The notes beneath the pieces were generated by a model. It was not told where the DNA came from. It was given only the letters and a program-made list of their open reading frames with translations, and ran no database searches. The position numbers were made by a program, and so were the translations under genes. Below, in pieces: positions 7,871 through 24,714 of a stretch of DNA of 64,000 nt; the stretch's first letter is position 1, and every line of letters begins with the position of its first letter. This DNA is from Rhizobium sp. NZLR1 (GTDB lineage: Bacteria; Pseudomonadota; Alphaproteobacteria; Rhizobiales; Rhizobiaceae): positions 2,299,501 through 2,363,500 of the forward strand of contig NZ_CP071632.1 in NCBI RefSeq assembly GCF_017357385.1. The letters run 5' to 3'.

Positions 7871-8551
7871 TCATGAGCGGCGTTTGACCACGCGCATATT
7901 CATCTCCGCGCGAAGCGTAAAGCCGAGCGCGAGATAGAGGGAAATGGCGGATGTGTTTGCCGCATAGGCATGCAGATAGGCGGTATCGCCGTTGGATGCG
8001 ATTTCGCCGGCAACGAAGCGGAAGAGCAGGGTGCCGAGACCGCGCCCCTGGAAATCGGGATGGGTGCAGAGCCCGCTGAGCTCGATGAAACCGGTCTGCC
8101 GCATCCGCTGCCCAGCCATCGCCACCAGCCGTCCGTCGCTTCTGATGCCCCAGAAGCTCCCCAGGCACTGGGCGCGCAGAGTGAATGGCCCGGGTTTGGT
8201 CAGTGTCGCCAAAGCCAGCATGTCGGCGGCGTCGGCCTCCGTCAGCATCTCGATGCGGGAATCCGAAATTTTCGCATGCGGCTGCTCGGCAATCATCTGG
8301 ACCGACGGTGCCTCCGTGGCGATGGCAAGGCCCGCTGGAATGGCGATCGGCCCGGCTTCGACGAGGATCATGCTCTCCTCCTGCGAAGGCAGATTCTCGA
8401 GGGCGTCGAGGCTTTCGGGCCTATCGTCAGCGGAGGCGGCGAAGGAGACGATCGATGGTGGGTATCGCCGCGCGTTTTCGTTCCCCTCCGCAAGGCCGGC
8501 ATGCGCCGTCTTAAGCGCGGTCCAGATCGGCCGGTCGAGGATATGGGTCAT
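7871..8551 (-). CDS. GNAT family N-acetyltransferase, 226 aa
   Basis: The C-terminal half is a GNAT fold with the acetyl-CoA loop Q-G-R-G-L-G-T (HPDFQGRGLGTLLF, near residues 163-176) and the later beta-bulge motif (ANTSAISLYLALGF). The N-terminal 90 residues are less typical. Substrate unknown; candidates are an amino group on a small molecule, antibiotic or protein. The ATG overlaps the stop of the upstream marR gene (ATGA at 8548-8551), so the two are co-translated. The MarR protein probably regulates its own operon, including this enzyme. Cytoplasmic, no signal peptide. Confidence 0.85.
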   Translation of the reverse strand: MTHILDRPIWTALKTAHAGLAEGNENARRYPPSIVSFAASADDRPESLDALENLPSQEESMILVEAGPIAIPAGLAIATEAPSVQMIAEQPHAKISDSRIEMLTEADAADMLALATLTKPGPFTLRAQCLGSFWGIRSDGRLVAMAGQRMRQTGFIELSGLCTHPDFQGRGLGTLLFRFVAGEIASNGDTAYLHAYAANTSAISLYLALGFTLRAEMNMRVVKRRS

Positions 8552-9039
8552 GCTTCTTCCTCCTTGCCCGGCTTGCGGCGCGCAAGCGGCACCGCCGCAA
8601 GCCCGTCCTCGATGGCTGCGAGCTGTTGGAGAATAGGCCCTTCGAGATCGCCGCAAAGATCCGCAACGGCGGCCGCGATGCGCGGCCAGATCACCTTTTT
8701 CGAATGATCGACGAGGTCCTGTCCCTTGCTGGTCAGCGAGACCAGTTTGCGGCGCTGATCGTCCGCGGCCGGCTGCATATCGACAAAGCCGAGTTCGAGA
8801 AGCTGGCCGATGGTGCGCGTTGCACCGGGCTGGGTAATTCCTACTGCCTGGGCAAGCTCGCCGATCGTCAGCGGTCCGGCCCTGTCGATTGCCGCAAGAA
8901 AGGGATACTGACCCGCCTGGATGCCGAGACCGGCCTCGTCGATGACCTGCTGCGTATCGGCCTGCAGCCTCTCTCCAATACGCCGCAACCGGCTGCCCAT
9001 GCACATAAAGCCGAGCGTTCGGACCACATCCTCGACCAT
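8548..9039 (-). CDS. MarR family transcriptional regulator, 163 aa
   Basis: A winged helix-turn-helix repressor of standard length. The recognition region is LTIGELAQAVGITQPGATRT, followed by the wing AADDQRRKLVSLT. Such proteins bind palindromes in their own promoter and let go on binding a phenolic or lipophilic ligand or on oxidation. The start at 9039 has GGAGAGG five bases upstream. A tandem repeat of TTATATAA elements sits 22-46 bases upstream and is the likely operator. The gene heads a two-gene operon with the acetyltransferase; the MFS exporter gene upstream on the same strand could be a second target. Confidence 0.9.
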   Translation of the reverse strand: MVEDVVRTLGFMCMGSRLRRIGERLQADTQQVIDEAGLGIQAGQYPFLAAIDRAGPLTIGELAQAVGITQPGATRTIGQLLELGFVDMQPAADDQRRKLVSLTSKGQDLVDHSKKVIWPRIAAAVADLCGDLEGPILQQLAAIEDGLAAVPLARRKPGKEEEA

Positions 9040-9060
9040 GCCGCCTCTCCATTTGCAGTA

Positions 9061-15027: not shown

Positions 15028-15831
15028 TCATCTCGTCCCTGCAAGAAACTGCCGAAATCTTTCGGATTTCGGATTGGTAAAAAGTTCGTCAGGTTCGCCC
15101 GCTTCTTCGACGACACCCTTGTGAAGAAATACCACTTTACTGGAAACGTCTCGCGCGAACCCCATCTCATGCGTTACAACCAGCATGGTCCGACCTTCCT
15201 CAGCAAGAGAGCGCATCACCTTGAGCACTTCTCCGACGAGTTCGGGATCAAGCGCAGAGGTCGGCTCGTCAAACAGCATGACCCTGGGCCGCTGCGCGAG
15301 TGCGCGAGCGATCGCAGCCCGTTGCTGCTGCCCGCCAGACAAGTGCGCGGGATAGAAATTTCGCTTGTCGACGATGCCGACCCGTTCGAGCAGAGCTTCA
15401 GCCTCGGCGATGCATTCGGCGCGGTTGCGTTTCTGCACGTGCACCGGCGCTTCGATCACATTCTCCAGGATGGTCATATGAGACCAAAGGTTGAAGCTCT
15501 GAAACACCATGCCGATGTGTTCGCGCATCCGATCGACTTGCCTGCGGTCAGCGGGCTCCGTTCTATGCCCCGCTTTCTTCAGAGCATACATCTCACCGCC
15601 GATGCGAATTTCTCCGCTGTCGGGGACTTCGAGCATATTGAGGCACCTGAGCATCGTCGATTTTCCGGAGCCGGATGAACCGAGAATGGAAATCACATCT
15701 CCCTCATGTGCTTCCAGGGAGACCCCCTTCAAGACTTCCAGTGGGCCAAAGCATTTCCGAAGATCCTTGACCGAAACGGCAGCGCTTTTATCATTGTTGT
15801 CGCTTGCCAAAACTGTTCCCCTGTCAGACAT
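15028..15831 (-). CDS. polar amino-acid ABC transporter ATPase (HisP/GlnQ type), 267 aa
   Basis: Walker [11 protein letters not shown]-loop VFQSFNLW, signature LSGGQQQR, Walker [14 protein letters not shown] and switch VTHEM are all present, with the length of the PAAT family. The ATG at 15831 follows GGGAG at good spacing; a GTG six bases upstream is less likely. It is the last gene of the minus-strand operon gntR-permease-permease-ATPase, 12 bases after the second permease. The substrate-binding protein is coded on the other arm of the locus (19300), so the importer is split across two divergent transcripts. Confidence 0.9.
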
Positions 15832-15843
15832 GCACACTCCCGT

Positions 15844-16542
15844 TTAAGATTGCAGCCGCATGCGCATGTGAGGCGAAAGCCAAAATTCGACCACCATGAG
15901 CATGCGCGTAACGACGAAAATGATCGCAAGGTAGATCGCGCCTGCGACGATGAAGATCTCGAAAGCGCGGAAGCTGTCGGCGATCAATTTTCCAGCCAGG
16001 CCGGTGACTTCCATGATCGTGATGACAGACGCGAGTGCCGTTGCTTTGAGCATCAGGATGATCTCGTTGCCATAAGCTGGCAGCGCATGCCTGATGGCAA
16101 TCGGCAGGATGATGCGTCTGAACAAAAGAACGCCCGACATGCCGCAAGCGCGTGCCGCCTCGATCTCCTGGATGGAGACGGCCTGCAGGCCGCCACGGAA
16201 AATTTCGCTGCAGTAGGCCGCGGTGTTCAGAGTGAGCGCTAGCACCGCACACCAGTAGGGTTCGCGAAAGAACCCCCAGACGCCAAGATCCTGTAGCTCA
16301 TGCCGGAATTGGCCAAGTCCATAGTAGATCAGGAACATTTGGACGAGCAGGGGCGAACCCCTGAATATGAAGACATAAGCGCCGGTTAAGGTTCGACCCA
16401 TCGCACCGCCGGTCACGGCCAGCAGCGAAATCGCAAGCGCCAAGGCGCTTCCTGCGAGGATGGATGTAATTGCAAGCTCAAGGGTTAGCGGCAAACCGCC
16501 CAGAAGCGTGAGAAACGTTTCCCACAGAAAGCCCGTATCCAT
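15844..16542 (-). CDS. polar amino-acid ABC permease (HisM type), 232 aa
   Basis: Inner-membrane subunit with about five helices. The PAAT signature loop is present (FRGSPLLVQMFLIYYGLGQF near residue 60), as is the EAA loop that contacts the ATPase (EIEAARACGMSG). The ATG at 16542 follows AGGGGGGCG and overlaps the stop of the first permease by one base (TGATG), so the two are coupled. It forms a heterodimer with that permease. The transported compound is probably a basic or guanidino amino acid, judged only from the ureohydrolase next door. Confidence 0.9.
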   Translation of the reverse strand: MDTGFLWETFLTLLGGLPLTLELAITSILAGSALALAISLLAVTGGAMGRTLTGAYVFIFRGSPLLVQMFLIYYGLGQFRHELQDLGVWGFFREPYWCAVLALTLNTAAYCSEIFRGGLQAVSIQEIEAARACGMSGVLLFRRIILPIAIRHALPAYGNEIILMLKATALASVITIMEVTGLAGKLIADSFRAFEIFIVAGAIYLAIIFVVTRMLMVVEFWLSPHMRMRLQS

Positions 16543-17267
16543 CACAACGCCCCCCTTATGCCCTGGGTCGTTCGAGCTTCCATGCGTCGGAACAGGATTG
16601 AAGAGAACCAAGTGATGACGAGATAGAGGACAACCGCCATCAGGTAGAACTCGAAGGGCCGGCGGGTAGAGCCGGCCGCGATTTGCGATTGGCGCAGGAG
16701 TTCGACCAGACCTGTGACAGAGACCAATGCGGATTCCTTCAGCACGAGTTGCCACGTATTTCCGAGACCCGGAATGGCGTAACGAAGGACGAGTGGAGCA
16801 ACGATGCGCCTGAATTTAGGCCATGGCCGCATACCGACGGCGCTGGCGGCTTCGATTTCACCGCGTGCAACCGATCTGTAGGCTCCGCGAAAAACCTCAG
16901 CCTGATAGGCGGCCGAAACCACGCCAAGCGCCAGGGTTCCGGTTAGAAATGCCGGCATTCCGATGAATCCTTGATAGCCGAACAGACCCCCCACGGATCC
17001 GAGGAATGCACTGCCGCCAAAATAGAAGAGATAGATGACCAGAAGGTCCGGCACACCGCGCAGAATGGTCGTGTAACCGTCGGCGAGCCATCGGATGGCC
17101 ATGTGACGGGATAGCTGCATGAAGGTGATAATCGTGCCGATTACCGTTCCAGCGAGAAAACCGCAGACGGATACACCGATTGTCATGGCGGCTGCGGTCA
17201 GAAGGAGCCAACCCCAACCCGTTTGCCCGAAGCCAACCAGAGCCAGGTAACTGTCGATAGGTGCCAT
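16542..17267 (-). CDS. polar amino-acid ABC permease (HisQ type), 241 aa
   Basis: About five membrane helices with the signature LRGVPDLLVIYLFYFGG near residue 68 and the EAA loop EIEAASAVGMRPW near 135. It partners the permease at 15844 and the ATPase at 15028. It begins 33 bases after the GntR gene on the same strand, so the regulator and its transporter probably share a transcript. Confidence 0.9.
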   Translation of the reverse strand: MAPIDSYLALVGFGQTGWGWLLLTAAAMTIGVSVCGFLAGTVIGTIITFMQLSRHMAIRWLADGYTTILRGVPDLLVIYLFYFGGSAFLGSVGGLFGYQGFIGMPAFLTGTLALGVVSAAYQAEVFRGAYRSVARGEIEAASAVGMRPWPKFRRIVAPLVLRYAIPGLGNTWQLVLKESALVSVTGLVELLRQSQIAAGSTRRPFEFYLMAVVLYLVITWFSSILFRRMEARTTQGIRGAL

Positions 17268-17300
17268 GCGTGGACCTCTTGGTGAAGGATCGGGTTTCAG

Positions 17301-18026
17301 TCAGTCGGCCGCTCGCCGATGCGCCCAGATGCGCTGGAGCTTCGACATGTTTTTCAGCGAGCTTTGAACATGGGCGCGGGCTGCGTCTGCGGCGGCTTCC
17401 CTGTCGCGTGCACAGATGGCGTCTGCGATTGCCCGGTGCTCGTCGAGATCCGTGTGCTCCAGATCGACCCAAAGGACTTCGAGCCAAAGGGCCAGGCGAA
17501 GCTGCTGGTAAACTTGATCCGTCGCCCTTACGAGCGCCTCGTTGCGAGTCGATTCCACGATGACGCGATGGATGTATAGTCCAAGATCGAGGTTGCGGGC
17601 CGCGTCGGACGGCGTCTTGTTGGTCGTCTCCTTGAGTTCCACCATCTGGGAAATGACACCCCGAAGCCGATCGAGGTCTTCCTCGGTCGCCACCTCGCAG
17701 GCGAGCTGGGCGGCGCAAACATCGAGCGCTTCACGAACGACCAGCAAATTGCAGAACTTGGTGACATCAAGATCGGTCACCGTATAGCCAAAATTACGCT
17801 GCCCGACGATGAGCCCTTCCTCTTCAAGCTTCATCAGCGCTTCACGCAACGGCGTTCGGCTGACGCCGAAGCGCTTGGCCAGTGAAATTTCTGAAAGGCG
17901 CTCCGAGGGGCGGAGCTGGCCGCTCAGGATCAGGTCCTTCAATTGCGAATATGTGCTTTCACGCAATGATCCTCGCTGTTCCGTTTTGGTCGATGCCAAG
18001 CAATTCCCCTTCCATCTCTGGTCCAT
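17301..18026 (-). CDS. GntR family regulator, FadR/FCD subgroup, 241 aa
   Basis: N-terminal winged helix (EISLAKRFGVSRTPLREALMKLEEEGL, residues 47-72), then an all-helical FCD effector domain with conserved metal/ligand residues (DLGLYIHRVIVEST, DEHRAIADAI). It is likely a repressor released by the locus substrate. The first ATG (18026) has a poor ribosome site; a TTG ten codons later is preceded by AAGGGGA and is possible. It lies between the transporter operon, which it heads, and the divergent catabolic operon. A TGTATACA palindrome in between is the probable operator, so it would control both arms. Confidence 0.88.
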   Translation of the reverse strand: MDQRWKGNCLASTKTEQRGSLRESTYSQLKDLILSGQLRPSERLSEISLAKRFGVSRTPLREALMKLEEEGLIVGQRNFGYTVTDLDVTKFCNLLVVREALDVCAAQLACEVATEEDLDRLRGVISQMVELKETTNKTPSDAARNLDLGLYIHRVIVESTRNEALVRATDQVYQQLRLALWLEVLWVDLEHTDLDEHRAIADAICARDREAAADAARAHVQSSLKNMSKLQRIWAHRRAAD

Positions 18027-18088
18027 TCACCGGTCCGGCGAACGCCATCATAACTTTTTCCCTCTTGCTCGATCAAGAAGAATACGAT

Positions 18089-18100
18089 TATGTATACAAT
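18089..18100. promoter_or_regulatory. TATGTATACAAT palindrome, likely GntR operator
   Basis: A TGTATACA core (18091-18098) with near-symmetric flanks sits between the divergent gntR and ureohydrolase genes. FCD-type GntR proteins commonly bind T-x-GTATAC-x-A sites. TTGACT at 18102-18107 next to it could be a -35 element for the plus-strand operon, though no good -10 follows. Confidence 0.55.
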
Positions 18101-18176
18101 GTTGACTACAACACGCAATGGTTCTAATCGGCTTTTTGAACGCGGCTTGAGATTTGGTTCAGGACATGGAGGCTCA

Positions 18177-19223
18177 ATGCCGGAGATTCTCAATCTGGAC
18201 GACCTGCGGAAGCGCTATTCCAACGCTTCAGGCGCTGAGATGTTCGATCCGGAGTTTCGAAAGGTCGCCGAATTGGTCTTTGGCGAGGGGGATAGTCGCC
18301 AGGCGCCCTATAGCGGCGTTCCGACATTGCTGAAGGCCCCGTATCGTCCAGACGCCGCACCCGATTTTGCGGGTATGGACATTGCGCTTTTCGGAATACC
18401 GATGGATCTCGGGGTGACGAACCGATCGGGTGCGCGGTTCGGGCCGAGAGCCGTCCGCAATGTCGATCGGGTTGGGCCTTATGATCATGTTTTGCGGGCC
18501 GTCCCGACGGCGCATGCACGCATTGCCGATATCGGCGATGTCCCATTCAAAAGCCGCTTTGATCTTGCTGCCTCTCATGACGATATCGAAGGATTTGTCC
18601 GCAGGTTGGTAGAGGCGGACGTTGTGCCGCTTGCAGTCGGCGGCGACCACTCGGTCGGCCTTCCCATTCTCAAGGCCGTTGGCAGGGATCGACCTGTGGG
18701 GATGATCCACATTGACGCCCATTGTGACACTGGTGGTTCATTTGAGGGGTGCAAGTTCCATCATGGCGGACCGTTCCGCCAAGCGGTACTGGATGGTGTG
18801 CTTGATCCCAGGCGGACTGTCCAGATCGGAATTCGAGGGAATTCCGAGTATCTCTGGGAATTTTCCTATGCTTCCGGCATGACCGTCATACATGCCGAAG
18901 ACGTTGGCGATCTCGGCATAAAGGCCGTAATCGCAAAAGCGAGAGAGATCGTCGGATCGGGTCCAACCTACGTCAGCTTCGACGTCGACTCTCTGGATCC
19001 GGCATTTGCGCCTGGCACGGGAACGCCCGAGGTCGGTGGACTGACCTCCGCCCAGGCCCTTGGCATTTTGCGCGGTCTTATAGGGTTGGACATCGTCGGC
19101 GGCGACGTCGTCGAGATCGCTCCGCAATACGACCCAACGTCGAACACGGCGCAAATTGCCGCTCAGGTTCTATTCGAACTCCTCTGCCTTGCGGCCGAGG
19201 CAATCAAGGTTCGCGCGTCCTAG
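18177..19223 (+). CDS. ureohydrolase (agmatinase / guanidinobutyrase type), 348 aa
   Basis: Arginase-superfamily hydrolase with the dinuclear Mn ligands in the usual blocks: GGDHSV near residue 156, DAHCDT near 180 (D, H and D ligands) and SFDVDSLDPAFAPGTG near 268. It releases urea from a guanidino compound. The length and a 40-residue N-terminal extension fit agmatinases and guanidinobutyrases rather than arginase. GGAGG five bases before the ATG fixes the start; a GTG-like start further upstream would run through the operator. With an aminotransferase and a semialdehyde dehydrogenase downstream, 4-guanidinobutyrate (giving GABA) is the tidiest substrate; agmatine is possible. Substrate is inference. 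Confidence 0.9.
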   Translation: MPEILNLDDLRKRYSNASGAEMFDPEFRKVAELVFGEGDSRQAPYSGVPTLLKAPYRPDAAPDFAGMDIALFGIPMDLGVTNRSGARFGPRAVRNVDRVGPYDHVLRAVPTAHARIADIGDVPFKSRFDLAASHDDIEGFVRRLVEADVVPLAVGGDHSVGLPILKAVGRDRPVGMIHIDAHCDTGGSFEGCKFHHGGPFRQAVLDGVLDPRRTVQIGIRGNSEYLWEFSYASGMTVIHAEDVGDLGIKAVIAKAREIVGSGPTYVSFDVDSLDPAFAPGTGTPEVGGLTSAQALGILRGLIGLDIVGGDVVEIAPQYDPTSNTAQIAAQVLFELLCLAAEAIKVRAS

Positions 19224-19299
19224 CAATCGGCTGGATGTCGCGAAGTCTGCAACCGCCTTGCTTGGGAATAGGGCAGGGCGCAAAAAGGGGAATAGAGAC

Positions 19300-20142
19300 A
19301 TGCAACTATCAAAGCTTTTGTTGACGTCCGCTCTGCTCGGCGTCATGTCGGCCGGCGCTGCCACCGCGCAGACAAAACCAACCGAGATCACAATTGCGAC
19401 CGAGGGCGCGTACGAGCCCTGGAATTTTACCGGTCCTGACGGCAAGCTCGCGGGGTTCGAGATCGATCTCGCCAATGACCTTTGCGCCCGCATGAAGATC
19501 AAATGCACCATCGTGGCCCAGGACTGGGACGGGCTGATTCCGTCGCTCAATGCCAAGAAGTTCGACGCCATCATGGCCTCGATGATCGTAACCGAAAAGC
19601 GTCTGGCGGTCATCTCGTTCAGCAAGCCCTACGCCCCGACCGCCGCCGCATTCATGGTCGACAAAACCGGTCCTCTGGCAGATTTGCCGGGGACGGGGAC
19701 GACGGTCGACCTTGCCGCAGACAAGGCGAAGGTCGAGCAGGAATTGCAGCCGCTTCGAGACGCCCTCAAAGGCAAGGCCGTGGGCGCCCAGGTTTCAACG
19801 GCGAACGCAGCTTTTCTCGACGCCTATTTCAAGGGCGTTGTCGATCCAAGAGAATACAAGACCGTCGAGCAACATGACCTGGACCTCCAGGCCGGTCGCA
19901 TCGACGCCGTGGTTGCCCAGAAAACGTCATTGACTGCAACCCTCGGAAAGGACGACTTCAAAGACTACAAGATCGCCGGCCCGACCTTCAAAGGCGGAGT
20001 CTTCGGACAGGGGATCGCGGCGGGTATCCGCAAGGACGATACAGTCTTGAAGTCGATGTTCGACGCTGCGATCGACGCGGCGGAAGCGGACGGCACGATC
20101 AACAAGCTTGCGCAGAAGTGGATCAAGACATCTCTTGATTGA
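19300..20142 (+). CDS. amino-acid ABC transporter substrate-binding protein, 280 aa
   Basis: Periplasmic binding protein of the family 3 type. A Sec signal peptide ends near SAGAATA-Q (about residue 23). The mature part begins with EITIATEGAYEPWNFTGPDG and holds GFEIDLANDLCARM, the family hallmark. Two Rossmann-like lobes follow. It delivers the substrate to the permeases at 15844 and 16542. AAAGGGGA lies upstream of the ATG. It belongs to the plus-strand catabolic operon, 76 bases after the ureohydrolase. Confidence 0.9.
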   Translation: MQLSKLLLTSALLGVMSAGAATAQTKPTEITIATEGAYEPWNFTGPDGKLAGFEIDLANDLCARMKIKCTIVAQDWDGLIPSLNAKKFDAIMASMIVTEKRLAVISFSKPYAPTAAAFMVDKTGPLADLPGTGTTVDLAADKAKVEQELQPLRDALKGKAVGAQVSTANAAFLDAYFKGVVDPREYKTVEQHDLDLQAGRIDAVVAQKTSLTATLGKDDFKDYKIAGPTFKGGVFGQGIAAGIRKDDTVLKSMFDAAIDAAEADGTINKLAQKWIKTSLD

Positions 20143-20266
20143 TTAAGCAGTCAAGCTCCCATTCCGGCAGCGATTGGCGGCCGGTGCACCGAGAGGTCGC
20201 ACCGGCAGCCGGGCGAAGCTTTGCCAAACGTCGCCGTCGAAACACACCTACATCTGGAGAACCATT

Positions 20267-21649
20267 GTGACCATCCTTCTCAACTCCGTTGAATCCCGCG
20301 ACGCCGCGTTTGTTCTTCATCCCTATACCAACGCCTCGCAACATCTGAAGGACGGCCCGCTGGTGATCGCCAGGGGTGAGGGGATCCACATCTTCGACAA
20401 CGAAGGCAATAAGTACATCGAAGGTCTTGGGGGGCTGTTTTGTGCGTCGCTGGGCTTTAGCGAACAACGTCTGGTCGACGCGGCAACCCGCCAAATGAAA
20501 GAATTGCCGTTCTATCACAGCTTCGGCGGCAAAACGCATGAGACCGCCGTCGAGCTTGCCGAACGGCTCATTCAGCTTTCACCGGTGCCGATGTCGAAAG
20601 TGTTCTTTGCCAATTCGGGTTCCGAGGCCAACGACACGGCCATGAAGCTTGTTTGGTATTATCACAATGCGATAGGCATGCCGGAAAAGAAGAAGATCAT
20701 CTCACGCATGCGGGCTTACCACGGTGTCACCATCGCTTCGGCGAGCCTGACCGGACTCCCGAACAACCACCGCGATTTCGATCTGCCGATCGATCGGGTA
20801 CTGCATACGGATTGCCCGGAGTTTTATCGCTATGGCCGCCCGGGCGAAACGGAGGAAGAATTCGCGACGCGCTGTGCCACCGCGCTTGAACAGATGATCC
20901 TTGCCGAGGGACCGGAAACCATCGGCGCATTCTTCGCCGAGCCATTGATGGCTTCCGGCGGCTGCATCGTTCCGCCGCCAACCTATTACGAGAAGATCCA
21001 GGCGATCCTCAAAAAATACGACGTACTGCTGATCGCCGATGAAGTCATCTGTGGCTTTGGCAGGCTGGGCACGATGTTCGGGTCCGAAAGCTTCGGGCTT
21101 CAGCCGGATATGATCGTCATGGCAAAGCAGCTTTCGGCGGCCTATCAGCCGATATCCGCACTGATGATCAACGAAAAGATCCATTCCGCAGTCGTTGCCG
21201 AGAGCGAGAAAATCGGAACATTCGGCCATGGTTTCACCTATAGCGGCCATCCCGTTGCGACTGCGGTGGCCCTGGAAACCTTGAAAATCTACGAGGAACG
21301 CGACATCGTTGGCCATGTCCGGAACATCGCCCCGCTGTTCCAGCGGCGGTTGAACGAACTTCGCGACCATCCGCTCGTCGGCAACGCCCGCGGTCGCGGC
21401 CTCATCGGGACCCTCGAACTGGTTCGCAACAAGGAAACGAAAGAACAGTTCAAGCCAACGGACGGCATCGCCATTCACGCAGGCAAACAGGCCCAGGTCC
21501 ATGGCGTCATCACGCGTGCCCTTGGCGACAATTATTCACTTTGCCCGCCGCTTATCATCACTGAAGCACAGATCAACGACTTGTTCGACCGCTCCACTCG
21601 GGCGTTAGATGACACGTACACCTGGGCGAGGGCGACCGGCCTCTATTGA
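20267..21649 (+). CDS. class III (omega-amino acid) aminotransferase, 460 aa
   Basis: PLP enzyme of the GabT/SpuC group. Seen are the PLP phosphate region NSGSEANDTAMK near residue 112, the conserved Asp of LIADEVICGFGR near 253, and the Schiff-base Lys in IVMAKQLSAAY near 285. The start is a GTG at 20267 with CTGGAGA upstream; there is no ATG that keeps the family's N-terminus. The family moves an amino group from a terminal amine (GABA, putrescine, beta-alanine) to pyruvate or 2-oxoglutarate. In this operon the likely reaction is GABA to succinate semialdehyde. The residues after the Lys (SAAYQPISAL) differ from SpuC (TSGYIPMG), so the exact substrate is open. Confidence 0.88.
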   Translation: MTILLNSVESRDAAFVLHPYTNASQHLKDGPLVIARGEGIHIFDNEGNKYIEGLGGLFCASLGFSEQRLVDAATRQMKELPFYHSFGGKTHETAVELAERLIQLSPVPMSKVFFANSGSEANDTAMKLVWYYHNAIGMPEKKKIISRMRAYHGVTIASASLTGLPNNHRDFDLPIDRVLHTDCPEFYRYGRPGETEEEFATRCATALEQMILAEGPETIGAFFAEPLMASGGCIVPPPTYYEKIQAILKKYDVLLIADEVICGFGRLGTMFGSESFGLQPDMIVMAKQLSAAYQPISALMINEKIHSAVVAESEKIGTFGHGFTYSGHPVATAVALETLKIYEERDIVGHVRNIAPLFQRRLNELRDHPLVGNARGRGLIGTLELVRNKETKEQFKPTDGIAIHAGKQAQVHGVITRALGDNYSLCPPLIITEAQINDLFDRSTRALDDTYTWARATGLY

Positions 21650-21666
21650 GTGAAGGAACCGACGAT

Positions 21667-23259
21667 ATGCGAAACTTCGAATTGCCTGGACGATCGATGG
21701 CTGTCGGCCGCAGCGGAATGGCGGCAACATCCCACCCGATGGCGACCTTGACCGCCATCGACATACTCAAAGCCGGCGGCAAGGCGATAGACGCTGCCGT
21801 GGGTGCCTGCGCCGTGCAATGCGTCGTCGAGGCTGGTTCCACCGGCATAGGCGGCGATTGCTTTGCGTTGCTGTCATCAAACGGAAATGATGATGTCGTT
21901 GCCTATAATGGCTCGGGACGCACACCGGCGGTGGCGCATTTCGACTGGTTTCGGGAAAACGGGATCGCTTCGATCGAGCGATCGTCGCCGCATGCAGTGA
22001 CGGTTCCTGGTGCGGTGGACGCGTGGACGCGTCTCGTTGCCGATCATGGAAGAATGTCGCTGTCAGAAATCCTTGCACCCGCAATTGCACTGGCTCGCGA
22101 CGGTTATGCAATCACACCGCGGGTCGCCGCCGACCTCTCGAAGCAAACTGATTTGCTACTGCGCGATCCTTCGACACGCCGCATTTTCCTGGTCGACGAT
22201 CAGGCTCCGCAGGTCGGATCGGTTCAACGTCAGTCGGAACTGGCACAGACACTGGAAACGATTGCAGCTTCGGGCCGGGACGGCTTCTATCGCGGCGCGG
22301 TGGCGGACGACATGGTGACACGGCTGAATTCGCTTGGCGGCCTTCATACACGCGAGGATTTTGCGTCTGCGGCTGGCGAATATGTCAAGCCTGTCAGCGC
22401 AACATATCGAGGATGGACGGTGCATGAATGTCCGCCGAACGGGCAGGGCATCGTCGCACTGATGATCCTGAAGATCCTGGAGCGCTTTGAACGCAAAGGC
22501 GATCCGCTTGATGTCGACAATCTGCACATCGAAGTCGAGGCCACTCGGCTGGCTTATGCCGCCCGTGATCGTTGGGTCGCCGACGCTGCGGTCTCAGTTG
22601 TTCCGGTCGATTTCCTCTTGTCCGAGGAACTTGCCGACAGTCTTGCCGCCGAGATCGACATGAATAGGGTCGCCGACGCCGGGGCGGCCATCGACGGCGT
22701 CGAGCATTCAGACACCGTTTACATTTCGGTCGTCGACAAGGACCGAAATGTAGCCAGCTTCATCAACTCGATCTTCCATCCCTACGGAAGCGGCTTGATG
22801 GCTCCGAACTGTGGCGTCTTGTTCCACAATCGTGGACAGAGTTTCAGTTTGAAGCAGGGCCATCCGAACGCGATAGGGCCGCGCAAGAGGCCCATGCACA
22901 CGATCATCCCAGGCCTGGTCACACGCCATGGCAAAACTGTTTTGTCATTCGGCGTCATGGGGGGACACTATCAGGCGATGGGCCACGCCCACTTCCTCAC
23001 CAAGCTTTTTGATTTCAATTTGGACATTCAAACGGCAATCGATTTACCTCGTCTCTTTCCGCTTCCTGGCACGGCGACGATCGAGGCCGAAGCACTTCTC
23101 CGTACCTCGATCGGTCCTGATCTTGAAGCGCGCGGTTTCAAGGTTACCGCTCCGAATTGGGCGATCGGCGGCGCCCAGGCAATCTGGATTGACGATCAAC
23201 ACAATACGCTGTTGGGCGCCTCCGATCATCGAAAAGATGGCTGCGCGCTCGGCTACTGA
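21667..23259 (+). CDS. gamma-glutamyltransferase family protein (YwrD-like), 530 aa
   Basis: Ntn-hydrolase of the GGT family. Residues 26-60 carry the usual start (PMATLTAIDILKAGGKAIDAA, GGDCF). The autocleavage site is HSDTVYISVVD, where the Thr after Asp becomes the nucleophile of the small subunit, and the GSG loop follows (FHPYGSG). No signal peptide, unlike secreted GGTs, so it works in the cytoplasm. The ATG at 21667 has GAAGGA upstream; a TTG at 21646 overlapping the previous gene is a weaker choice. It may remove a gamma-glutamyl group from an imported gamma-glutamyl amine or amide, feeding the ureohydrolase or aminotransferase; that is inference. Confidence 0.88.
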   Translation: MRNFELPGRSMAVGRSGMAATSHPMATLTAIDILKAGGKAIDAAVGACAVQCVVEAGSTGIGGDCFALLSSNGNDDVVAYNGSGRTPAVAHFDWFRENGIASIERSSPHAVTVPGAVDAWTRLVADHGRMSLSEILAPAIALARDGYAITPRVAADLSKQTDLLLRDPSTRRIFLVDDQAPQVGSVQRQSELAQTLETIAASGRDGFYRGAVADDMVTRLNSLGGLHTREDFASAAGEYVKPVSATYRGWTVHECPPNGQGIVALMILKILERFERKGDPLDVDNLHIEVEATRLAYAARDRWVADAAVSVVPVDFLLSEELADSLAAEIDMNRVADAGAAIDGVEHSDTVYISVVDKDRNVASFINSIFHPYGSGLMAPNCGVLFHNRGQSFSLKQGHPNAIGPRKRPMHTIIPGLVTRHGKTVLSFGVMGGHYQAMGHAHFLTKLFDFNLDIQTAIDLPRLFPLPGTATIEAEALLRTSIGPDLEARGFKVTAPNWAIGGAQAIWIDDQHNTLLGASDHRKDGCALGY

Positions 23260-23277
23260 CAGCAATGGAGAACGAGT

Positions 23278-24714
23278 ATGGCGGCATATCCGGATACCCA
23301 ACTTTATATCAATGGCCACTGGAGGGACGGCTCTGACGAGAGTCTGACCATCGTCAATCCCGCCTCGGGCGAGGTCATCGGCCGCGTTTCAAATGCCAGC
23401 AAGGGTGATCTCGACGAAGCGCTTTCGGCCGCCACCGCCGGGTTTGAACACTGGCGGCAAGTCAGCGCGTTCGAGCGGGCAAAACTCATGCACGACGCCG
23501 CCAAGATCCTGCGGGACCGCTCCCAGGCGATCGCGCGCGTAATGACGTTGGAGCAGGGCAAACCGCTAGCTGAATCCAAGGCGGAAACCGCGGGAGCTGC
23601 AGACACCATCGACTGGTTTGCCGAAGAGGCGCGTCGTGCCTACGGCCGTTTGATCCCGCCGCGGGCGACCCATATCAGGCAGATGGTCGTCAAGGAGCCT
23701 GTCGGCCCGGTGGCGGCCTTCAGTCCGTGGAATTTTCCATTGAATCAGGCCGTACGGAAAGTTTCGGCGGCCCTTGCAGCCGGCTGCTCGATTATCTTGA
23801 AGGGGCCGGAGGAGACGCCGGCAAGCTGCGCTGAACTCGTTCGCGCCTTTGCTGATGCGGGCCTGCCGGCGGGCGTGCTCAATCTCGTTTTTGGAGTTCC
23901 CGCCGATATTTCGAACTATCTTATTCCGCACCCGGTTATCCGGAAAATCTCCTTCACGGGATCGAGCGTGGTCGGAAAGCAGCTGGCCTCGCTGGCCGGC
24001 GCCCACATGAAGCGCGTGACGATGGAACTCGGGGGCCACGCGCCGGCTCTCGTTTTCGATGACGCCGATATCGATCTGGCGGTCAGACTGTTGGCCGGTG
24101 CGAAGTTTCGAAACGCCGGTCAGGTCTGCGTGGCACCGACACGGTTCCTCATCCAGGAAAGCGTCTATGAAAGATTTCTCGATGGCCTGGTAAAGGCGGC
24201 CGAGGCAATCAACGTCGGCGATGGATTGAGCGATGGTGTCACCATGGGGCCGCTTGCCAATGCGCGAAGGGTCGAGGCCATGGAAGCGCTGACAGCCGAC
24301 GCGGTTATGCGCGGCGCGAAGATCGCAACCGGCGGCAAAAGGATTGGCAATCTCGGCAATTTCTTCCAGCCGACAGTTCTGACCGACGCTCCACAAGATG
24401 CGCGCGTCCTGAGCGAAGAACCGTTTGGTCCGCTTGCGATTGTCAGTGCCTTTTCAGACTACGCTTCTGCCGTTGCCGAAGCCAATCGCTTGCCATACGG
24501 GCTTGCGGCATATGCCTACACGACCTCTGCAAAGACCAGTGCCGGCCTTGCGCGCGATATCGAAAGCGGCATGCTGTCGATCAATCATCATGGACTGGCG
24601 CTGCCAGAGCTACCCTTCGGCGGCATAAAGGATTCCGGCTACGGTTCGGAAGGCGGTACCGAAGCGATGGAGAGCTATTTCAATACAAAGCTCGTAACCG
24701 AGGCGGTTGGTTAG
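23278..24714 (+). CDS. NAD(P)-dependent succinate-semialdehyde-type dehydrogenase, 478 aa
   Basis: Aldehyde dehydrogenase superfamily, GabD subgroup. Seen are the N-x-x-x-P cofactor segment (SPWNFPLNQ near 153), FTGSSVVGK near 225, the general base Glu in MELGGHAP near 251 and the catalytic Cys in NAGQVC near 285. The C-terminal PFGGIKDSGYGSEGG is as in succinate-semialdehyde dehydrogenases. It oxidises an omega-semialdehyde to the acid, probably succinate semialdehyde to succinate for the TCA cycle. It is the last gene of the operon, 18 bases after the GGT-like gene. Confidence 0.88.
   Translation: MAAYPDTQLYINGHWRDGSDESLTIVNPASGEVIGRVSNASKGDLDEALSAATAGFEHWRQVSAFERAKLMHDAAKILRDRSQAIARVMTLEQGKPLAESKAETAGAADTIDWFAEEARRAYGRLIPPRATHIRQMVVKEPVGPVAAFSPWNFPLNQAVRKVSAALAAGCSIILKGPEETPASCAELVRAFADAGLPAGVLNLVFGVPADISNYLIPHPVIRKISFTGSSVVGKQLASLAGAHMKRVTMELGGHAPALVFDDADIDLAVRLLAGAKFRNAGQVCVAPTRFLIQESVYERFLDGLVKAAEAINVGDGLSDGVTMGPLANARRVEAMEALTADAVMRGAKIATGGKRIGNLGNFFQPTVLTDAPQDARVLSEEPFGPLAIVSAFSDYASAVAEANRLPYGLAAYAYTTSAKTSAGLARDIESGMLSINHHGLALPELPFGGIKDSGYGSEGGTEAMESYFNTKLVTEAVG

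Follow-up and report, generated by a model that had tools for sequence, protein, structure and literature searches.

Gene content and layout of the locus

The locus described here occupies positions 15028-24714 of a 64 kb stretch of DNA from Rhizobium sp. NZLR1 (contig NZ_CP071632.1, positions 2,299,501 to 2,363,500), called the window in the following. It carries nine genes in two divergent arms, which may serve the uptake and breakdown of a guanidino compound, with an amide bond possibly opened by a protein of the gamma-glutamyltransferase (GGT) fold. All nine genes are present, according to the open reading frames of the window and to searches with domain and family models (Table 1). The left arm features, in this order, a GntR regulator, two permeases and the ATPase of an ATP-binding cassette (ABC) importer; the right arm a ureohydrolase, a binding protein, a class III aminotransferase, the GGT-fold protein and an aldehyde dehydrogenase.

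A preliminary description of this DNA had placed the same nine genes on the same strands, and both frames and models bear this out; its coordinates hold overall, but some gene starts have moved, refined starts being taken from annotated orthologues in Rhizobium sp. NXC14. The longest ureohydrolase frame opens at an ATG at 18090, inside a palindrome: as the NXC14 orthologue measures 1047 nucleotides (nt), the start was put at 18177. The GntR-linked ABC importer, also proposed there, is supported. The split layout is found in loci of Rhizobium, Sinorhizobium, Agrobacterium and Phyllobacterium, but not in Azospirillum, where ureohydrolase, binding protein, permeases, ATPase, aminotransferase and GGT run in the same direction.

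Table 1. Features of the cassette: position in the window, strand and basis of each assignment
Feature	Position	Strand	Basis
ABC importer ATPase, polar amino acid / opine type	15028..15837	-	PF00005; best NCBIfam model HisP, 336.9 bits, below cut-off of 466
ABC permease	15844..16545	-	PF00528, nearest ArtM/HisM; start from 702-nt NXC14 orthologue
ABC permease	16542..17267	-	PF00528, nearest ArtQ/HisQ
GntR/FCD regulator	17301..18026	-	PF00392 and PF07729; start uncertain, NXC14 orthologue of 699 nt
Probable operator ATGTATACAA, palindrome, core TGTATACA	18090..18099	+	Word shared among GntR-ureohydrolase spacers
Ureohydrolase, arginase fold, probably guanidino-acid type	18177..19223	+	PF00491
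Periplasmic binding protein, OccJ-like	19300..20142	+	Best PDB match octopine-binding 5ore, 276.8 bits; TIGR01096 255.8 bits, just below cut-off of 256.35
Class III aminotransferase	20267..21649	+	PRK06105 785.8 bits, above cut-off of 517; best PDB match 5ghf, plant GABA transaminase POP2, 504.7 bits
GGT-fold N-terminal nucleophile (Ntn) hydrolase, HpxW-like by active-site residues, 530 aa	21667..23259	+	PF01019, 448.4 bits
Thr codon, nucleophile and start of small chain (Thr357 of 537-aa frame)	22714..22716	+	Aligned with first residue of solved small chains
Semialdehyde dehydrogenase	23278..24714	+	PF00171; best PDB match 5x5t, ketoglutaric semialdehyde dehydrogenase, 622.1 bits; third match 5vbf, succinate semialdehyde dehydrogenase, 542.9

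Conservation of the cassette

The same block is met again in Azospirillum and among further Hyphomicrobiales, which indicates a real unit; variant gene sets are also found in Burkholderiales. The window ureohydrolase is up to 93% identical to that of Rhizobium loci. Among 397 genomes of the order, 69 contain a ureohydrolase match at E <= 1e-125: in all seven whose best match is at least 76%, the GGT lies 28 bases to 2.5 kb away; in the other 62, with weaker ureohydrolase matches, no GGT match at E <= 1e-185 is present on the same contig.

A set of 79 loci was collected by ureohydrolase similarity. In 33 of them (L001-L031, L077, L078) the ureohydrolase scores at least 71%, and all of these but the Enterovirga bin L026, thus 32, contain the GGT; none of the remaining 46, with ureohydrolases at 58-69%, does. 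The 33 loci span Rhizobium, Sinorhizobium/Ensifer, Agrobacterium, Phyllobacterium, Mesorhizobium, Azospirillum, Ancylobacter and Microvirga, and further include an Enterovirga bin and unclassified bins and isolates. Gene order varies among the 32 GGT-bearing loci: in R. sullae the ureohydrolase sits at the far end of the cassette, while in Microvirga, an Ancylobacter polymorphus locus and one metagenome bin the GGT adjoins the ureohydrolase. The dehydrogenase is the least constant of the cassette enzymes, as judged from the merged locus table described below.

Two loci look damaged. In L078, from Rhizobium pisi, aminotransferase, GGT and dehydrogenase remain, and no permeases, no GntR and only part of the ureohydrolase could be located, as if the rest had been deleted. 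On a Burkholderia ambifaria plasmid (L170), where importer genes, aminotransferase and GGT are annotated, the ureohydrolase after the GGT is unannotated and looks broken, with pieces in different frames.

Active site of the GGT-fold protein

The GGT-fold protein passes the gamma-glutamyltransferase family model TIGR00066 (375.2 bits, cut-off 357.85), and those of the 120 listed relatives that carry a name are called gamma-glutamyltransferase, gamma-glutamyltranspeptidase, glutathione hydrolase or family thereof. In the E. coli enzyme, Arg114, Asn411, Asp433, Ser462 and Ser463 bind the alpha-amino and alpha-carboxyl groups of the gamma-glutamyl moiety. This set is absent from the window protein, which reads Ser, Phe, Ser, His and Thr instead, the column of residue 114 being less sure, since the loop there aligns with gaps. 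At E. coli positions 114, 391, 409, 411, 430, 433, 462, 463, 483 and 484, the complete series is Ser, Thr, Ser, Phe, Arg, Ser, His, Thr, Gly and Gly. The same ten positions read gap, Thr, Ser, Tyr, Arg, Ala, His, Thr, Gly and Gly in the small chain of 5hft, which we take to be the oxamate amidohydrolase HpxW, the record itself being titled gamma-glutamyltranspeptidase. The two proteins, compared over the small chain alone, share the fold, the Thr nucleophile (Thr357 in the window), Arg in place of Gln430, His-Thr in place of Ser462-Ser463, an aromatic residue in place of Asn411 and the Gly-Gly of the oxyanion hole; as an HpxW-type signature, Arg at 430, His-Thr at 462-463 and the aromatic at 411 are read from this one chain.

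A paralogue in the same genome (L081, C1:3823049-3824494) features the canonical set (Arg, Thr, Thr, Asn, Glu, Asp, Ser, Ser, Gly, Gly), and a third homologue, L082, neither the canonical nor the HpxW-type one. When relatives were aligned, 195 of 196 sequences, window and repeats included, showed Thr391, Arg430, His462 and Thr or Ser at 463, and lacked Asn411 and Asp433; the single deviating sequence, P0011, is different at the nucleophile position. Compared with E. coli Ggt, the window protein is alike in fold, maturation site and overall family score, but lacks the gamma-glutamyl-binding residues and, as far as inspection by eye of its 530 residues tells, a signal peptide for export.

With the gamma-glutamyl-binding residues gone, the likeliest activity is cleavage of an amide in which the acyl side does not carry the glutamyl amino group; the protein is probably a different kind of amide-splitter rather than a gamma-glutamyl enzyme. 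The preliminary description had taken the presence of a GGT homologue as a sign that the substrate bears a gamma-glutamyl group, and this is not supported; its more general point, that with a GGT present the substrate should be something beyond a plain guanidino acid, can be retained in the form of an amide, though not a gamma-glutamyl one. GGT-fold amidohydrolases without gamma-glutamyl specificity are known, HpxW being the example. HpxW belongs to purine breakdown, while the window protein stands beside an importer, a ureohydrolase and an aminotransferase.

Partners of the GGT

The neighbours of the GGT were scored in a merged locus table, where loci shorter than 8 kb were left out, as was L104 (GGT of 52% beside a GpuA-type ureohydrolase). 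Sampling was by choice, and covered 13 out of 112 plasmid records, 20 out of 133 genomes and 14 out of 23 genomes of a further set. Three GGT-led loci with the cassette (L119, L144, L147) were dropped as copies of L025, L023 and L017, and L027 was scored as lacking the dehydrogenase, although its contig ends inside one. In this table, biased because part of its loci had been fetched by ureohydrolase similarity, at least one partner is present in 49 of the 56 loci with a GGT of at least 57%, against 0 of the 22 with a GGT below 57%. The former include 21 GGT-led loci (L118, L120, L138-L141, L145, L146, L158-L167, L173, L174, L176): six feature the ureohydrolase, seven the binding protein without ureohydrolase, one the aminotransferase only and seven none of them. 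That the GGT might be an unlinked neighbour was considered and rejected, as it tracks the cassette in 7/7 genomes and its partners in 49/56 versus 0/22 loci.

The ureohydrolases found near this branch of GGTs are of several kinds. In Burkholderia pyrrocinia, an agmatinase-type ureohydrolase (548.4 bits to 4dz4) occurs with a 70% aminotransferase and a 61% GGT; in Caballeronia sp. NK8, the branch lies near a 33% ureohydrolase and a 57% aminotransferase; in Azospirillum oryzae, a ureohydrolase of the paralogue clade is found about 5 kb from the GGT, beyond a second type of ABC importer; in genome G011, a GpuA-type ureohydrolase stands beside a more distant GGT (52%). On a tree, the neighbourhood of varied ureohydrolases calls for five label changes, and well-supported branches force four of these; in that tree, the row of Caballeronia is doubled and long-branched. 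A set of six loci retains binding protein, permeases and GGT, with neither ureohydrolase nor aminotransferase nearby: four are on plasmids, of Allorhizobium, Rhizobium, Pararhizobium and Pannonibacter, and two in other genomes. The latter two genomes were checked and contain five and two arginase-family genes elsewhere, so that the ureohydrolase step could be supplied. The tracking of the cassette, the several ureohydrolase lineages and the six loci devoid of ureohydrolase indicate, taken together, that the GGT is no bystander.

Two of the GGT-led loci feature other neighbours. In L118 (1272-11151), aminotransferase and GGT are accompanied by a PotABCD-like importer and two FAD (flavin adenine dinucleotide) oxidases; identification of the latter as PuuB was not borne out, the best model being L-pipecolate oxidase, below cut-off. 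In L140, which has no ureohydrolase, the GGT is followed by a small isochorismatase-like hydrolase (8486-9040), weakly matching biuret amidohydrolase (65.4 bits, cut-off 370).

Ureohydrolase and binding protein

The best PDB match of the window ureohydrolase is the 3-guanidinopropionase 3nip (308.7 bits); among solved structures GpuA is the nearest, followed by GbuA. Of the Pseudomonas aeruginosa enzymes, which share its fold, GpuA (3-guanidinopropionase) is 52% and GbuA (4-guanidinobutyrase) 41% identical to it. The metal ligands His126, Asp148, His150 and Asp152 are kept in the alignment columns, and the later DVD motif was recognised by eye. At the position of GpuA Tyr157 and GbuA Met161, presumably the one that sets specificity, cassette ureohydrolases carry Phe in 37 out of 37 rows (34 distinct); Tyr is found there in 35 of 51 relatives outside the cassette; L026, the Enterovirga bin, has Tyr. 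An Arg of GpuA and GbuA is Gly in all cassette rows and in all 51 non-cassette relatives. For a human enzyme, a model described in the available sections of PMC9772407 has Arg105 of the neighbouring subunit reaching the active site, and a Gly105 variant accepting longer substrates; in our own reading, this may be the position of the cassette Gly. Activity on 4-guanidinobutyraldehyde, 2-ketoarginine and 4-guanidinobutanoate is reported, in the part of PMC7268258 available, for SpeB2 of Sinorhizobium meliloti, which need not be the orthologue. In Azospirillum brasilense (L171, 8064-8870), a related ureohydrolase adjoins a nitrilase-family amidase, for which 5jqn, an aliphatic amidase, is the best PDB match, as well as an ABC importer of a second type; this is perhaps a different amidase for a similar job.

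The nearest solved relatives of the binding protein are the octopine-binding OccJ and the nopaline-binding NocT. Of the ten residues of the octopine signature, taken from the contacts listed in the available part of PMC5740067, five are kept in the window protein, all in the arginine part (Glu30, Tyr33, Trp71, Arg96, Gln159 in OccJ numbering), and none of the five contacting the keto acid, where Ser91 is replaced by Ile, Asn111 by Ala, Thr163 by Ala, Ala164 by Asn and Asn202 by Gln. The NocT signature G97-M117-H170-S207 is matched at 0 of 4 positions, the window protein reading Ile, Ala, Asn and Gln. By the published signatures the protein would bind neither octopine nor nopaline. Binding proteins of at least 54% beside a GGT display a near-identical set, with Ile or Phe at 91, Gln at 202 and some variation at 89, 109, 111, 163 and 164, that of L078 being cut short; Bosea binding proteins beside other ureohydrolases have Asn91 and Asp202. 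By simple inference, the ligand would possess a guanidinium group and a carboxylate, and no free alpha-amino group.

Aminotransferase, dehydrogenase and end of the path

Among the 25 models listed for the window aminotransferase there is no transaminase of 4-aminobutyrate (GABA), and the window dehydrogenase scores 474.5 bits with the succinate semialdehyde dehydrogenase (SSADH) model, below its cut-off of 646.35. Two Agrobacterium cassettes do not contain this type of dehydrogenase, and feature GabT and SSADH directly after the GGT instead: the 4-aminobutyrate--2-oxoglutarate transaminases score 830.9 and 832.1 bits (cut-off 724), and the SSADHs 692.9 and 689.2, above the subfamily cut-off of 646.35 and under the NADP-SSADH equivalog. 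The Microvirga locus contains a GABA transaminase (575.4, cut-off 506.65). These genes are the best evidence that GABA and succinate semialdehyde may lie on the path; the aminotransferase of the cassette itself may act on another amine. Guanidino catabolism ending in GABA, succinate semialdehyde and succinate, as proposed in the preliminary description, is supported by the Agrobacterium genes and by a pocket fit for a guanidino acid without alpha-amino group.

In Azospirillum sp. B510 (L173, 10561-16084), cassette and racemase are followed by an aldehyde dehydrogenase, a p-hydroxycinnamoyl-CoA hydratase/lyase, an AMP-binding protein and an aromatic-acid symporter. Hydroxycinnamoyl-agmatine, suggested by this flank as a substrate, was dropped as a one-off: inspection by eye of the flanks of L025, L028, L029 and L030, about 3.5 kb each, revealed nothing alike.

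Control region

The palindrome was detected through words common to the spacers between GntR and ureohydrolase genes. The word TATGTATACAA is present in 24 of 29 spacers, where the window is counted twice, corresponding to 23 of 28 distinct loci; it is absent from four Azospirillum spacers and one of Mesorhizobium. Exact ATGTATACAA occurs at a single site in the whole 64 kb. When one mismatch is allowed, three sites are found, against a chance mean of 0.52, a number reached in 1 out of 100 shuffles. A search with one regular expression for a GntR site turned up little. One operator-like site between the arms, as is seen here, is what joint repression by a GntR protein would require, and binding of the GntR protein to it may be inferred.

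Proposed function and alternative explanations

The explanation we tentatively favour, as not quite an even chance, is that of an inducible cassette which imports and degrades an amide-linked guanidino compound, an HpxW-like amidohydrolase being the enzyme that would open it. The gene set, its conservation, the shared palindrome, the pocket residues and the loss of the gamma-glutamyl residues are read in the sequences; the binding by GntR, the order of the steps, the amide and the substrate are inferred. From a single TGTATACA operator, the GntR protein would keep the two divergent operons in check. What the OccJ-like binding protein captures would be a molecule that ends in a guanidinium on one side and in a carboxylate on the other, and that lacks a free alpha-amino group; inside the cell, the GGT-fold Ntn-hydrolase, of the HpxW kind, would cleave the amide bond, and the ureohydrolase would free urea. 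The aminotransferase would then convert the freed omega-amine to an aldehyde, with pyruvate as the likely acceptor, and the dehydrogenase would oxidise the aldehyde, the path ending from GABA through succinate semialdehyde to succinate. A four-carbon skeleton, of the 4-guanidinobutyrate type, is the likeliest core.

A number of observations weigh against this explanation. In the Enterovirga bin, a 77% ureohydrolase has no cassette partner on a contig of 15.2 kb; of the 56 loci with a GGT of at least 57%, seven lack any partner, and in L118 the aminotransferase is the sole one; the four plasmid loci with binding protein, permeases and GGT show no annotated ATPase next to these genes. The ureohydrolase in Burkholderia is of agmatinase type, and that of the window passes the agmatinase model TIGR01230 (184.8, cut-off 174.3), although it stays under another, PRK02190 (272.1, cut-off 302). 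The adjacency of GGT and ureohydrolase in G011 could be due to chance, and the shared word is missing from the Azospirillum spacers. As for the pocket, two Burkholderia binding proteins keep the five arginine-part residues, with Asp at 202 as in arginine binders, and that of Caballeronia has lost most of it, Arg96 alone being kept of the five; these differences indicate that the ligand need not be common to all lineages. Arg96 would favour a free carboxylate, a simple carboxamide fitting badly, and Ile or Phe at 91 would be equally compatible with a plain guanidino acid that bears no substituent and offers no amide to split.

A first alternative is the use of plain 4-guanidinobutyrate or 3-guanidinopropionate through ureohydrolase, GABA or beta-alanine aminotransferase and dehydrogenase, the GGT-fold protein then having some secondary use, for instance on a lactam or an overflow amide. 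We regard it as unlikely, yet to be taken seriously: the ureohydrolase is nearest to GpuA, then to GbuA, among solved structures, the pocket lacks alpha-amino contacts and is filled by Ile or Phe, and SpeB2 of S. meliloti, according to the part of PMC7268258 available, is active on 4-guanidinobutanoate. A side role would, however, leave unexplained why the GGT is kept where ureohydrolase and aminotransferase are missing, and beside unrelated ureohydrolases. An amide on the alpha-nitrogen of arginine would fit a pocket that retains the arginine part of octopine binders and has lost the alpha-amino contacts; the GGT would then act either at the start, giving arginine, or at the end, after N-acyl-ornithine and N-acyl-glutamate semialdehyde, as in the arginine succinyltransferase (AST) pathway, on which the enzyme set of the cassette maps one to one. 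Such a route seems improbable, since the ureohydrolase fails the arginase model (88.5 bits, cut-off 227.6), the best model of the aminotransferase is PRK06105, with the acetylornithine models far below cut-off, the GabT of the Agrobacterium cassettes points to GABA, and the acyl group may find no space next to Ile or Phe at 91.

Even less probable is a Dav-like route, with the GGT-fold protein as a 4-guanidinobutyramide amidohydrolase followed by ureohydrolase, aminotransferase and dehydrogenase: HpxW offers a precedent for primary amides, and the nitrilase-family amidase that takes the place of the GGT in A. brasilense agrees with it, but that pairing is one locus, Arg96 suits a carboxylate and not a carboxamide, and no source of the amide is known here. 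Least probable of all is the gamma-glutamyl-linked guanidino or amino compound of the preliminary description, with the GGT as gamma-glutamyl hydrolase in a PuuD-like step. It is in line with the TIGR00066 match (375.2 against 357.85) and with genome G355, where aminotransferase and GGT occur with a PotABCD-like importer; against it, Asn411, Asp433, Ser462 and Ser463 are replaced in the window and in 195 of 196 sequences, and present in the paralogue L081.

A broader form of the favoured explanation, in which the nutrient is an undescribed amide-linked guanidino compound of the root zone, and the GGT-fold branch with HpxW residues has been recruited several times beside different ureohydrolases for the same kind of job, is possible, although more doubtful than the amide-opening cassette as such.

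Relation to known pathways and significance

Conversion of arginine to succinate in rhizobia, by way of 4-guanidinobutanoate and GABA, has already been described, as reported in the available part of PMC7268258. The arginine transamination network of S. meliloti bacteroids, presented there, likewise runs from 4-guanidinobutanoate to GABA and succinate, with redundant ureohydrolases, transaminases and dehydrogenases, but in that part no GGT-fold enzyme is included, and the term "gamma-glutamyl" is not found in the available main text. A literature search of partial coverage retrieved no printed account of this gene combination.

If the proposed function is true, a soil nutrient and the enzyme that opens it both await names, and the repeated pairing with ureohydrolases would narrow the compounds to a short list. 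For the whole GGT branch, the active-site residues argue against gamma-glutamyl specificity, despite the gamma-glutamyl names of its relatives, and caution is advisable before this branch is assigned to glutathione metabolism.

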